Below, one piece after another: positions 2,497-61,093 of a DNA stretch of 64,000 nucleotides. How positions within the stretch are numbered: the stretch's first letter is position 1; each line of letters starts with the position of its first letter. The notes beneath the pieces were generated by a model. The model was not told the origin of the DNA. It did not search any database and saw nothing but the letters and a program-made list of their open reading frames with translations. The stretch lies in contig NZ_CP024123.1 of NCBI RefSeq assembly GCF_002736105.1, forward strand, positions 3,154,001 through 3,218,000. Direction: 5' to 3'. This stretch comes from Solibacillus sp. R5-41 (GTDB lineage: Bacteria > Bacillota > Bacilli > Bacillales_A > Planococcaceae). Made by a program: the position numbers and the translations under genes.

Positions 2497-2738
2497 ATCA
2501 ATTACGCCTCGGCTAACTCTTGTCCAGATTTTTTTTCGAGCAAGCTCAAAAAAACTGTGACATCCACCGGAGCCTTTGAACCAACACGATGTTGGTCACT
2601 CAGGCGTTGCCGCACGACGCGGTTTTATTAGCCTGAGTTCCCCTATTCAGTGGGGGTTCACCCCAACTGAATCATGTTAAATGAATACGTATTCATTATA
2701 TCATATTTTCATTTTTAGAACCTCGTGGAATTTCTTAA
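2497..2738 (-). repeat. Dispersed modular intergenic repeat, copy A
   Basis: Left end ATCAATTACGCCTCGG, then GTCCAGATTTTTTTTCGAG, TGTGACATCC, hairpin CCAACACGATGTTGG (2581-2595), CTCAGGC...GCCTGAG (2599-2636) enclosing GCCGC/GCGG, hairpin around CAGTGGGGGTT, and a GGAATTTCTTAA tail. The right half of the first palindrome is degenerate. Orientation is given as the strand on which the element follows the 3' end of a gene (here sdhB). See the other copies B-G. Confidence 0.85.
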
Positions 2739-7350: not shown

Positions 7351-7588
7351 AAAAAAAGCGACCTTCCATGTTCATGGAAAGTCGCCGTCAAGACAAATAA
7401 TAAAGTTAATTGTTCTTTTTGGATAGCTCTCCAGAACATGCGCTCTGACAATTTTACATTTCTTAAATGCAAAACCAGCAATTTGTGCGAACAATACACA
7501 ATTCACTTCGGCAGTCTCCCCTTTCGAATGCATTCAACGGAATTGTCCTTCCTCATGCATCGTACTTTTGAACACTGCGCCTCTATCG
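7351..7588 (-). promoter_or_regulatory. Lysine riboswitch (L box) with terminator
   Basis: On the minus strand the leader starts with P1 GATAGAGGCGC (about 7577-7587), passes GAGGAAGGAC, GGGGAGACTGCCGAAGTG and GAGCGCATGTTCTGGAGAGC, and closes P1 with CTATC (7422-7426), as in known L boxes. The expression platform at 7351-7386 is a strong hairpin (GGCGACTTTCCAT / ATGGAAGGTCGC) with seven T. It should switch off the downstream ACT gene when lysine is bound. Confidence 0.93.
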
Positions 7589-7622
7589 ATTGAAATTATT
7601 AAATTAGTCTCACTCTAGCATA

Positions 7623-25848: not shown

Positions 25849-26039
25849 ATCAATTACGCCTTGGCGTAATTGCGTCCAGATTTTTTCGAGCTAGCTCGAA
25901 AAGCTCCTCTTAAAAATCTGTGACATCCGCCGGGGGCTTTAATTTGATTCAGCCTGGGTTTGAACCCCCTCTGAAATCAGTGAATATTTCGTATTCATCC
26001 ACACCTATATAAGCGGAAGATTTCTGTTGAAGCAAATTA
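25849..26039 (-). repeat. Dispersed modular intergenic repeat, copy B
   Basis: Left palindrome AATTACGCC-TT-GGCGTAATT (25852-25871), then GTCCAGATTTTTTCGAGC, GCTCGAAAAG, TGTGACATCCGCCGGGG, arm AATTTGATTCAGC, and the tail GTTGAAGCAAATTAA. The final TTA (26037-26039) is the complement of the dbpA stop codon TAA. Confidence 0.88.
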
Positions 26040-27488
26040 AAATGACTTACTATTCGCGATATGCACTTTTAAATGCTTGCCTTTTATTGGTGTTGTTTTC
26101 ATTGCCTTTAACACTAAATGACCTTTGCCATTCAATATTTCAATAAAGGTTGATGTATCCAAAATCGTAATGATTCCAATATCATCTCCAGTCATTCCTG
26201 GTATTTTGGCAATTGTCCCAACAAAGTCTACTGCACGCAATTTCTTCTTTTTACCGCCGTTAAAATAGAGCTTCGTAATTTGTGCATTCACTTTGGCACT
26301 TTTCGATTTTTTCTTAATCGGCATGGCGTCCATTTTCTGTTCAAATGCATCCTGGTTGGCCGCTACTGCCTCTGCTGTTGGAAGTGGGGTTTTCGCAAGC
26401 TCAAATTGAATAAATTCTTCAATGCCCGCTAAAAATTTATGCTCAAACGGTGTTACGAACGTAATGGCTTTGCCTGATAATCCTGCACGACCTGTTCGAC
26501 CCGTCCGATGAACATAGGCTTCCTTTTCTAATGGTAGATCATAGTTTACAACAAGTGAAATATTTTCAACATCAATCCCGCGCGCAGCAACATCCGTCGC
26601 TACTAAATAACGAAACTCACCGCGCTTATAGTCATCCATTACCATTAAACGGGTAGACTGATCCATACCCCCGTGCAGCTTATCGACACTATATTCTAAA
26701 TCATATAAGTGGTCATGAACTTCATCCACACGATCTTTTGTGCGACAAAAAATAATACAACTATCTGGATTTTCCACAATCATTGCCTTTTTTAATACGG
26801 CAAGTTTCTCGTCCTCTTGTACTTCCATTGCGATATGCTCAATTTTAGGCGCCGTTTGTTGTTCTTGTTGGACTTCGATATCAACGGGCTGCTTCATATG
26901 GCGCAGTGCTAAAGTTTTAATTTCATTCGGCACAGTTGCTGAAAAGAGCATCGTTACACGTTCTTTTGGTAAGTACGATAAAATGGCCTCCACTTGGTCT
27001 AAAAAGCCCATATTCAGCATTTCATCAGCTTCATCTAATACAAGATACTTTATTTTATCTAGCTTTAGCGTTCCTTTTTCGATATGATCTAATACACGTC
27101 CGGGAGTCCCTACTGCAATATGTGTTTTTTGCTTTAGCTCATCCTGTTGATAACGGAATGGCTGTTTTCCATAAAGAGCCGTTGCCTTAATACGTTTATA
27201 GCGTCCAATATTCGTAAACTCTTCCTTCACTTGTACCGCTAATTCCCTTGTCGGTGTTAAGACAAGTGCTTGTGGTTTATTTTCAAGCCATTCAACATTT
27301 TCACAAATCGGAATGGCAAATGCAGCCGTTTTCCCACTTCCGGTTTGAGATTTTGCGATGATATCCTCTTTTTGAAGTGCAATTGGCAGCACTCTATCTT
27401 GAATTTCAGTTGGCTCTGTATAATCTAAATCACCCAGTGCTCGGATGATTTCGTCTGATAAATTAAATTGTTGAAATTGTTTACGCAT
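26037..27488 (-). CDS. dbpA: DEAD-box RNA helicase DbpA (YxiN)
   Basis: ATP-dependent helicase specific for 23S rRNA hairpin 92 in large-subunit assembly. Two RecA domains carry [41 protein letters not shown] and [10 protein letters not shown] in order. The C-terminal part ends with the rRNA-binding RRM that begins [26 protein letters not shown] and closely matches B. subtilis YxiN. The ATG at 27486-27488 has AAAGGAG 6 nt upstream; the track's earlier starts do not. The stop codon is formed by the right end of repeat copy B, and copy C begins only 22 bp upstream of the start. Confidence 0.94.
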
Positions 27489-27510: not shown

Positions 27511-27761
27511 ATCAAATATGCCTCGGCATAATTGCGTCCGGAATCGGCTTTGTGTTGGCACAGGATGTTAGCCTAAGTTCGTCGCATCCATGCGACAACG
27601 GCTAACTGACCTGCATCATGCTGGCCTCCTTTCCGATTCTGTGACATCCGCCGGGGCTTAACTTATTTCAGTAATTGTTTAGATAAACACTGAAAACTAA
27701 CTTAAAATCCATTTTCATCTTACCACTTATATAGGTAGGATACTTCTACTGAAAAAAGTTA
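27511..27761 (-). repeat. Dispersed modular intergenic repeat, copy C (variant)
   Basis: Left palindrome here is ATGCC-TC-GGCAT, a compensated form of the ACGCC/GGCGT seen in copies B and F. The second stem is GGAATCGG/CCGATTC instead of AGATTTTT/AAAAATCT, and its interior is replaced by a nested hairpin (TTAGCC/GGCTAA around GTCGCAT/ATGCGAC, 27569-27608). TGTGACATCCGCCGGGG is conserved. The outer tail arms TTAACTTATTTCAGTA and TACTGAAAAAAGTTAA pair at 15 of 16 positions. The last TTA supplies the LysR stop codon. Confidence 0.85.
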
Positions 27762-28655
27762 AATGTTTGCAATTGCTGGATCGACAATTGCAATAAATTT
27801 CTTTGTCGCTCTTGAAATTGGGACCGATTTCAAATGGACAATCCCTATACTTCGCTTTGGTACTTCTAGTTGTAAACTGACCTCATGTAATATCCCTTTA
27901 TCCAAATAATCTAATGCAAACTCTTTCGTCACACTAGCAACGCCCAAATTGATTTTTGCGAATTCCAACACTAAATCATGTGAACCTAGTTCAAATTCAG
28001 GTGAAATAGTATACCCTTGTTCCTTTAAATAATTCTCTACATAGTTTCGAGAATTCGCTTTTTTTTCTAAAAAAATTAACGGTAACTTCATCAGCATATC
28101 CAAACTAATCGGTTTTTTCGTTAAATTTCGGTATTTTTCACCACAGACGAAAATGTCTTGAATTTCCTTACACGGTAGGACTTGCAATTGCTCATCTACT
28201 ATCGGTAAATTACAAATACCTAAGTCTGCCTCTCCCGATTTTATAAACGCCAAAATTTCAATCGTTGTTCCATTTAAAACCTTTAATTTAATTCCAGGAT
28301 ATTTCACATGAAAAGCTTCTAAATAGGGTAAAAGAAAATAACGCGAAATTGTATCACCTACACCAATTCTTAGCTGACCTGTTCGCAAATTTTTAAATTC
28401 TAAAATTTTTTCTTCTCCGGCATCCAAAATACCAAGAGCGGAATTAACATATTCGTGTAAAAGCTTTCCCTCATTTGTTAATGTAACTCCTTTTGGTGTC
28501 CGATTAAAAAGTAAGGTTTCAAGTTCTTTCTCAAGCTTTGAAATCGTTTGACTGACTGCGGGTTGTGTCATATATAATTCCGCGGCTGCCTTCGAAAAGC
28601 TTTGATTACGACTTACAACATTAAAAATCCGATACGATTCGAGCTTCGCAATCAT
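27759..28655 (-). CDS. LysR-family transcriptional regulator
   Basis: 298-residue LysR regulator. The N-terminal winged helix-turn-helix spans about 5-65 (YRIFNVVSRNQSFSKAAAELYMTQPAVSQTISKLEKEL), followed by a linker helix and a periplasmic-binding-type effector domain (about 90-295; GQLRIGVGDTISRYFLLPYLEAF). It is divergent from the CofE-like gene at 28779, with an ATAA-N7-TTAT element between them, so the neighbour is the likely target. The effector is unknown. The stop codon TAA is formed by the terminal bases of repeat copy C. Confidence 0.9.
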   Translation of the reverse strand: MIAKLESYRIFNVVSRNQSFSKAAAELYMTQPAVSQTISKLEKELETLLFNRTPKGVTLTNEGKLLHEYVNSALGILDAGEEKILEFKNLRTGQLRIGVGDTISRYFLLPYLEAFHVKYPGIKLKVLNGTTIEILAFIKSGEADLGICNLPIVDEQLQVLPCKEIQDIFVCGEKYRNLTKKPISLDMLMKLPLIFLEKKANSRNYVENYLKEQGYTISPEFELGSHDLVLEFAKINLGVASVTKEFALDYLDKGILHEVSLQLEVPKRSIGIVHLKSVPISRATKKFIAIVDPAIANI

Positions 28656-31414: not shown

Positions 31415-31610
31415 ATCAATTACACCTCAGCGGAATTGGATCCAAATTTTTTTGAGAATGCTCAGAAAACCCCTATAAAAATCGGTGAAATCCGCCGGGG
31501 GCATTAGGCCAACACGAATGTTGGTCACTCAGGCAGGGTTTGAACCCCCACTGAATTAAGAGCATATTTAGACGTAACGAAATAGCGGAATTGTGCTGAA
31601 GCAAGTTGAA
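31415..31610 (-). repeat. Dispersed modular intergenic repeat, copy D
   Basis: ATCAATTACACCTCAGCGGAATT, then TTTTTTTGAGAATGCTCAGAAAA, a TCCGCCGGGGGC block, CCAACACGAATGTTGG (31513-31528), AGGGTTTGAACCCCC hairpin, and a GTGCTGAAGCAAGTTGAA tail. Left palindrome is partly decayed. The only copy that lies between divergent genes. Confidence 0.82.
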
Positions 31611-40592: not shown

Positions 40593-40848
40593 AAAAAAAC
40601 CTCGCCCCCTAAAAAAGGGACGAGGACGAGTTTCGCGGTACCACCCTAGTTATTGCAAAAATGCAATCACTTCATTTGAGCTAACGACTCATTACGCCGG
40701 CAATCCTTTCACCAATTTTGGCTCCCGGAAGCTGCTCGCGGGGTGAACTTCATTATGCAATTTGTATGCAAGCTTGCAGTCTCGGCTCACATTTCCTAAA
40801 ACAAATTTCACATAATTACTCTTCCCGGTCAATGCATTTAGTAGTTAT
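40593..40848 (-). promoter_or_regulatory. T-box riboswitch, pheST leader
   Basis: Minus strand carries the T-box sequence AGGGTGGTACCGCG (about 40633-40646) and a terminator at 40593-40625 (CCTCG...CGAGG, then seven T). A TTC triplet at 40745-40747 fits the specifier for phenylalanine. Antiterminator formation on uncharged tRNA-Phe should allow pheS expression. Confidence 0.93.
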
Positions 40849-55000: not shown

Positions 55001-55197
55001 ATCAATTACGCCTCGACTTAATTGTGTCCAGATTTTTTTCGAGCATGCTCGAAAAGCTTCCCTAAAAATTCTGTGACATCCGCCGGGGCTTTAGGCCAAC
55101 ACGATGTTGGTCACTCAGGCGTTGCCGCACGACGCGGCGTTCTTAGCCTGAGATCCTTCTAAACAGTTGGGGTTTGAACCACTGCTGAATCAAGTCA
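55001..55197 (-). repeat. Dispersed modular intergenic repeat, copy E
   Basis: ATCAATTACGCCTCGACTTAATT, GTCCAGATTTTTTTCGAGC and GCTCGAAAAG, TGTGACATCCGCCGGGGC, CCAACACGATGTTGG (55094-55108), CTCAGGC...GCCTGAG enclosing GCCGC/GCGGC, GGGGTTTGAACC, then GCTGAATCAAGTCAG. It has the same middle module as copy A. The TCA at 55195-55197 is the complement of the dUTPase stop codon. Confidence 0.88.
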
Positions 55198-56423: not shown

Positions 56424-56500
56424 ATCAATTGTGCTCCTGCCAACTTTTGTCCAAAATTTTTCGAGCACGCTTGAAAAACTTCTCTAAAACAGCTGGACAA
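56424..56500 (-). repeat. Decayed copy G of the dispersed repeat
   Basis: ATCAATTGTGCTC, then TTGTCCAAAATTTTTCGAGC, ACGCTTGAAAAACTTCTCT and CAGCTGGACAA line up with the left half of the other copies. The palindrome is lost and the element is truncated at its right side, where ysdA begins. Confidence 0.65.
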
Positions 56501-60583: not shown

Positions 60584-60825
60584 AAATAAAAAGCACCATC
60601 CCAACAAAGGGACGATGCTGTATATGCTCGTGGTGCCACCCTTCTTCCTTCTCGCAAAATTGCGAAATTGAAGCTCTCGGTCAGTTAACGTACTGAGAAA
60701 CGTTGACGGATTCGCCCCGTCACTGCTCCAAGGTAGTAAAGATTTACGCTTTTGCTAGGAAGTTTGCAGCCGTGACTTCCCTCTCTAAAAGCTAGTTCGT
60801 AAAACTTGTTGTCCTCTTCAAGGCA
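60584..60825 (-). promoter_or_regulatory. T-box riboswitch, thrS leader
   Basis: Minus strand has AGGGTGGCACCACG (about 60627-60640) and a terminator at 60584-60619 (GCATCGTCCC/GGGATGGTGC, T run). An ACC triplet at 60732-60734 fits a threonine specifier. The leader begins almost directly at the left end of repeat copy F; no separate promoter is evident between them. Confidence 0.92.
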
Positions 60826-60836
60826 TTTGAATGTTG

Positions 60837-61025
60837 ATCAATTACGCCTCGGCGTAATTGCGTCCAGATTTTTTCGAGCTTGCTCGAAAAACTCCTATAA
60901 AAATCTGTGACATCCGCCAGGGGCATAACTTGATTCAGCTGTGATTTAAACCCTCACTGAATAAAGTTCGCACTTGGCATTTATCCCAAATTTTAAAAGT
61001 AGGAGATATCTGCTGAATCAAGTTA
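60837..61025 (-). repeat. Dispersed modular intergenic repeat, copy F (best conserved)
   Basis: Perfect 20-bp palindrome AATTACGCC-TC-GGCGTAATT (60840-60859), GTCCAGATTTTTTCGAGC and GCTCGAAAAAC nested inside CAGATTTTT/AAAAATCTG, TGTGACATCCGCC, and outer arms AACTTGATTCAGC (60928-60940) and GCTGAATCAAGTT (61011-61023) that are perfect complements. It lies 70 bp after the dnaI stop and directly before the thrS leader. Confidence 0.9.
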
Positions 61026-61093
61026 ATTACTAAAGTAGTATACGCTCGTTCCTCACGAATTGCAACTGCTAATAGGAGATTTATTCTGACAAA

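Follow-up and report, generated by a model that had tools for sequence, protein, structure and literature searches.

A family of structured intergenic repeats in Solibacillus sp. R5-41 with features of a non-autonomous mobile element

Repeat copies in the window and their architecture

The window analysed is a 64-kb stretch of DNA, bases 3154001-3218000 of the 4,283,411-base (4.28 Mb) genome of Solibacillus sp. R5-41. Between dnaI and the T-box leader of thrS (gene names after Pfam) it holds a structured repeat, copy F, one of seven that the initial annotation had described as a family in one shared orientation. All seven, A to G, were recovered in that single orientation by an HMM search, which gave no eighth copy in the window. 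The limits proposed earlier mostly match those of the HMM, except that copy A ends at about 2681, so that its former end at 2738 lies about 57 bases too far. The natural reading direction is the reverse of the one first adopted, the opposite strand reading 5'-CTTG...GTAATTGAT-3'. The copies and the matches to the Rfam family RF01690 (Bacillaceae-1) within them are as follows, G011 being a sister genome:

2497..2681, minus strand: copy A, whose third arm holds Bacillaceae-1
2581..2647, minus strand: RF01690 Bacillaceae-1 module in copy A (67.5 bits, E 3e-10)
25849..26040, minus strand: copy B, starting on the TAA stop codon of a DEAD-box helicase gene; G011 site empty
27511..27762, minus strand: copy C, starting on the TAA stop codon of a LysR-type gene; G011 site empty
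27557..27624, plus strand (opposite to C): RF01690 Bacillaceae-1 module, type II, in the double stem of copy C (59.6 bits, E 2e-8)
31415..31609, minus strand: copy D, with half a Bacillaceae-1; G011 site empty, target TCAA
55001..55197, minus strand: copy E, with Bacillaceae-1, starting on the TGA stop codon of a dUTPase gene; G011 site empty
55096..55162, minus strand: RF01690 Bacillaceae-1 module in copy E (77.2 bits, E 1.6e-12)
56424..56489, minus strand: copy G, decayed, right end alone (HMM positions 1-67, E 8.5e-8)
60837..61026, minus strand: copy F, full element without Bacillaceae-1 (HMM limits)

The thrS T-box leader (60613-60830, minus strand) lies just downstream of copy F; its stretch alone scores 38 bits, truncated at the stretch end and under the Rfam gathering score. 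A lysine riboswitch (7416-7593) and a second T-box leader (40613-40841), both on the minus strand, have also been found.

On the minus strand copy F reads TTAA^CTTGATTCAGC ... GTAATTGAT, the caret marking the junction, and consists of these parts:

61023..61026, minus strand: TTAA at the 5' junction, probable target (flank preference; empty sites of other copies)
61012..61022, minus strand: left-end hairpin arm CTTGATTCAGC (helix 1)
60929..60939, minus strand: internal partner arm GCTGAATCAAG (helix 1)
60925..60928, minus strand: foot 4-mer TTAT (TTAA or ATAA in other copies), covarying with the target
60907..60923, minus strand: conserved core block CCCCTGGCGGATGTCAC
60866..60906, minus strand: double stem AGATTTTT / TCGAGC..GCTCGA / AAAAATCT, which in other copies hosts a type II Bacillaceae-1
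60839..60860, minus strand: right-end hairpin CAATTACGCCGAGGCGTAATTG, then AT and the 3' junction

The general layout of the family begins with TTAA^CTTG[A/C/T]TTCAGC ... GCTGAATCAAG-TTAA-GCC..CGGCGGATGTCAC and continues in its 3' part with the double stem, TCTGGACG, the hairpin CAATTACGCC-GAG-GCGTAATTG and AT^. The loci fetched from this genome have a length of about 190 bases without the Bacillaceae-1 insert and about 253 bases with it.

A helix count over 47 copies and the fold of copy F both place hairpins near the two ends of one strand. Folded as single-stranded DNA, copy F is more stable than 200 of 200 shuffled sequences (z -5.7). The covariation test that had been proposed was carried out on a named structure with the same 47 copies, drawn from several genera; two-sided changes were found in 25 of the 50 pairs of the named helices, exceeding the 10.7 +/- 2.1 of shuffled alignments. 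Standard pairs make up 89.7% of the pair cells, and the pairing signal is abolished when the helix partners are slid against each other. Among the stem mismatches G-T (144) and A-C (145) are equally common, hence no RNA strand looks selected after insertion.

The view that the middle of the element is modular holds, with a different distribution of the modules. The CCAACACGATGTTGG module, assigned to A, D and E, corresponds to RF01690 in A and E (with CTCAGGC/GCCTGAG), and D carries half of it. Copy C, taken to be without that module, does hold RF01690, in the other orientation and inside the double stem.

Empty sites, orientation and target

The repeats are a non-coding DNA family, recently mobile and present in more than 100 copies in this genome. 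A sequence search gave at least 40 full-length copies of the F type, and 108 copies keeping the ATCAATT end were counted among the loci fetched, both numbers being lower bounds drawn from searches and fetched stretches and lying far above chance expectation. When 410 kb of this genome was compared with 400 kb of G011, about 88% identical, copy F was the sole full copy common to both in the compared block, with 93% identity between the two. At least 18 copies here face empty sites in G011, and about a dozen copies of G011 face empty sites here. The suggestion of a non-autonomous mobile unit is strongly supported by these empty sites and by copy numbers that range within the genus from none detected (E<=0.001) to more than 40 per genome.

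The insertion junctions were obtained by taking the element as CTTS...GAT, joining the flanks by script and aligning them to the empty alleles. In the 19 that were readable the insertion is exact, with clean joints and no target duplication; some junction bases have mutated since insertion, the sister species being 12% diverged. The element lies 3' of TTAA in most cases, or of TAA/TGA preceded by a variable base, and one subfamily uses TTAT. For copy B, for example, the empty allele reads tcattttaa^tagcataa and the filled one tcattttaa[element]aagcataa. The base before the insertion is A in 16 of 16 A-type sites and T in 3 of 3 T-type sites of the empty alleles. Since this base is already there in the empty allele, the TTAA-like flank is target and not element, except that T-type joints may be read one base leftward, in which case the covarying base would fall inside the element. 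By analogy, the TTAA at 61023..61026 is most probably part of the target of copy F, outside the element. The start of 24 copies, B and C among them, coincides with the stop codon of the gene upstream (copy E was read separately). This placement is explained by TAA and TGA serving as targets, and the stop is preserved.

The functional strand runs along the leading-strand gene direction in 82 copies and against it in 26 (p 6e-8). The replichores are confirmed by GC skew, with the origin near 0 and the terminus near 2.1 Mb. The ratio is 19:3 between convergent genes and 8:5 between divergent ones (together 27:8, p 0.002), and 6:2 between two lagging-strand tandem genes, which brings the three classes to 33:10 (p 0.0006); the gene-orientation classes are approximate, with ORFs called by a simple script. 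The orientation follows replication and the bias is not borrowed from the neighbouring genes. It places the functional strand usually, in about three of four copies, on the lagging-strand template, and the agreement of all seven copies in the window results from this genome-wide bias.

The foot 4-mer sits 3' of the left hairpin, and its first base was compared with the target base at -1. A T-foot goes with A in 94 copies and an A-foot with T in 43, the mismatched combinations T/T and A/A being found 5 times and once (Fisher p 1e-29). CTTG copies with an A-foot have T at -1 (13 copies) and CTTC copies with a T-foot have A at -1 (10 copies); such crosses show that the target is predicted by the foot, whichever bases the element starts with. 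The excess of foot-target pairing is found at -1 and -2 and is gone at -4 and -6. The match is one of base complementarity across subfamilies, seen as a correlation. Where Bacillaceae-1 occupies the third arm the foot is gone, yet these copies too lie at TTAA-type sites.

Distribution in the family and the Bacillaceae-1 module

The genome-wide search that had been named as a possible refutation gave further copies both in this genome and in its family, where the element has been identified in 120 of 200 genomes and 12 of 19 genera, and it was also found in another family of the same class. Named records that contain it are Solibacillus palustris, Metasolibacillus meyeri, Psychrobacillus, Lysinibacillus xylanilyticus and Bacillus norwichensis, some of these hosts having been supplied by a 16-base core search of genome contigs whose matches were mainly due to chance. 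Two genomes of the other family, G377 and G281 (L484-L487), carry minimal relatives with the compensated arms CTTTATTCAG/CTGAATAAAG and CAAATACGCC/GGCGTATTTG. The clearest of these has an identical TTAA flank and foot, and no autonomous version was seen on reading the copies of both genomes.

The three RF01690 matches in the window lie far above the Rfam gathering cut-off of 35 bits. The statement that no named element of this kind was known thus stands for the host element, while one of its modules is a named Rfam family. In the literature found, Bacillaceae-1 is treated solely as a candidate RNA (PMC2864571), and eight of them have been counted in B. subtilis (PMC8208703). This genome gave 103 matches, found mostly inside the element: in the third arm of at least 50 copies and, as a second form, in the double stem in either orientation. 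Within this genome RF01690 further sits inside Bacillaceae-1 itself and inside two unrelated repeat families, and in other genera it occurs in further repeat families and alone; it was present in 146 of 200 genomes.

At L033, L027, L075 and L080 a Bacillaceae-1 lies within another one and replaces about 5-7 bases of the inner-hairpin region of the outer copy; at least some Bacillaceae-1 junctions replace several host bases. A second repeat family, GTTGATTGGAATGGAG..GGCGACTCCTGCGGGAA ... CCCGCGGAAAGCGTCC..GGAAATCAAC, carries the module at varying positions (L035, L037, L040, L049, L056) and occurs in related genera as well, one copy lying 1.4 kb past the end of the window at genome position 3219371. 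A third family, CCGCCGCC..TCTTGCACAAAGCACAA, contains it at L041, L058 and L244, and more unrelated repeats of other genera do so at L371, L398, L385, L390, L395 and L383. From the nested and varied positions of RF01690 we infer that Bacillaceae-1 is a separate, smaller module, mobile as an insert and not an sRNA gene of fixed position.

Mode of movement and comparison with known systems

As a non-autonomous mobile DNA element, the repeat probably transposes in single-stranded form, as IS200/IS605 elements do. An HUH-type nuclease supplied in trans would cut the strand at target^CTTG and TTGAT^, assisted by the folded ends and by pairing of the foot with the target. The excised strand would then be joined to a new target exposed behind the replication fork. 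Bacillaceae-1 would have entered the element at several points and then spread along with it. A host function is not needed for these data.

Lagging-strand targeting, hairpin ends, guide-target pairing and non-autonomous "PATE" forms have been described for IS200/IS605 (PMC6006769; PMC7290912). The element shares with them (i) hairpins near both ends; (ii) insertion 3' of a short fixed target; (iii) the lack of target duplication; (iv) the bias to the lagging-strand template. Its internal 4-mer, which covaries strongly with the target, may correspond to their guide. The element differs in that the genome is without tnpA, the ends differ from those of the IS200 of the genus and the targets are TTAA/TTAT; its foot is found 3' of the left hairpin, where IS608 has it 5'. 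No Y1 transposase was found in this genome in the PF01797 search, and for this reason the element is likened to the non-autonomous IS200/IS605-type elements and not filed as a member. Of the four genomes of the genus with the highest copy numbers, three (G000, G001 and G002) have no PF01797, control genomes being matched; several high-copy genomes of other genera have no Y1 gene either, and that of G011 carries a stop codon.

Several candidate drivers have been rejected. The IS200 of the genus has ends unrelated to those of the element. The flanks shared between copies are orthologous genes or chemotaxis receptors, with no recurring transposase ORF. RAYT-like Y1 genes are present in 125 of 250 family genomes, and at 2 of 30 RAYT loci, both in one genus, the element is their neighbour. 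At these two loci, L454 and L457 (two genomes), the right end of the element lies 12 and 17 bases past the Y1 stop codon; in a third genome a decayed copy stands behind a RAYT-like Y1 gene (L444).

Similarities to other repeat families should also be considered. Like REP/BIME with TnpA-REP (RAYT), the element forms many intergenic palindromic copies, and REP/BIME are thought to be moved by a Y1 protein. Unlike them it is about 190-255 bases long with defined ends, has GTCC conserved beside the double stem (e.g. TTGTCC in A and G) instead of a conserved GTAG/CGTC tag, and does not regularly flank RAYT genes, which are absent from the highest-copy genomes of the genus. The pneumococcal BOX is similarly modular and composite, intergenic, structured, non-autonomous and spread in a burst (PMC3049150); it has been tied to an IS via its terminal inverted repeats, which the element does not have, and the modules are unrelated. 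The bcr1 of the Bacillus cereus group is another short non-coding mobile repeat of Bacillales, set apart by its description as a MITE with terminal repeats (PMC3733652).

Another single-strand route, through a plasmid or phage Rep protein (HUH), an integrase that works on folded single strands, or template switching at the fork, appears unlikely. It fits the same data as the IS200/IS605-like reading, the missing Y1 gene leaving room for other enzymes, and Helitron-like A^T joints would suit the T-type sites. PF04986 (IS91 type) had no match in any genome of the genus, with the control equally silent, and against template switching the fixed short target and fixed ends favour a dedicated nuclease.

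Group II introns insert without target duplication, base-pair with the sequence immediately 5' of their site and may prefer the template of the lagging strand. An RNA-mediated route would share these insertion traits: a transcript of the element would enter single-stranded DNA at the fork, in the way of endonuclease-free group II introns, and its foot would be comparable to an exon-binding sequence. The functional strand often runs in the direction of the upstream gene. This route is nevertheless improbable, since no Rfam intron family and no Domain V/VI matched, reverse transcriptases were absent from G001 and G002 and limited to one weak RVT_1 match in G000, and the equal mismatch frequencies favour no RNA strand.

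The initial annotation had also considered a transcribed 3'UTR element, that is, a conserved 3'UTR or intergenic RNA kept for gene regulation or mRNA ends. The strong covarying structure, the 24 starts on stop codons and the cataloguing of RF01690 as an sRNA speak for it. This proposal has little support and is very improbable, as copy F alone among the full copies is common to both sister species in the compared block, copy number varies more than tenfold in one genus, the orientation tracks replication, no strand-specific G-T tolerance is seen and the placement on stop codons reflects target choice. A DDE-type MITE from a resident insertion sequence, the MITE origin that had been raised as a refutation, would account for a short, structured, gene-free, high-copy repeat and is largely refuted by ends (CTTG... 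and ...TTGAT) that are not inverted repeats of each other, by the 19 junctions without target duplication and by an orientation bias that such an element is not expected to have.

A further reading is possible at a clearly lower level of confidence than the IS200/IS605-like one. In it, family-wide single-strand elements choose their targets by hairpin-foot pairing and depend for movement on an enzyme other than a recognisable Y1 transposase, and Bacillaceae-1 would be a second mobile unit, of about 70 bases, inserting into them, into other repeats and into itself.

In genomes of the Solibacillus/Lysinibacillus family the repeat accounts for a component that is very abundant and had no annotation. 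Its hundreds of insertions form a natural data set for reading target choice by base pairing. Rfam files RF01690 as an sRNA gene, whereas the majority of its occurrences here are nested within mobile repeats; most RF01690 hits examined in this family look like mobile inserts, and the annotation of Bacillaceae-1, together with the functional guesses attached to it, needs revising.
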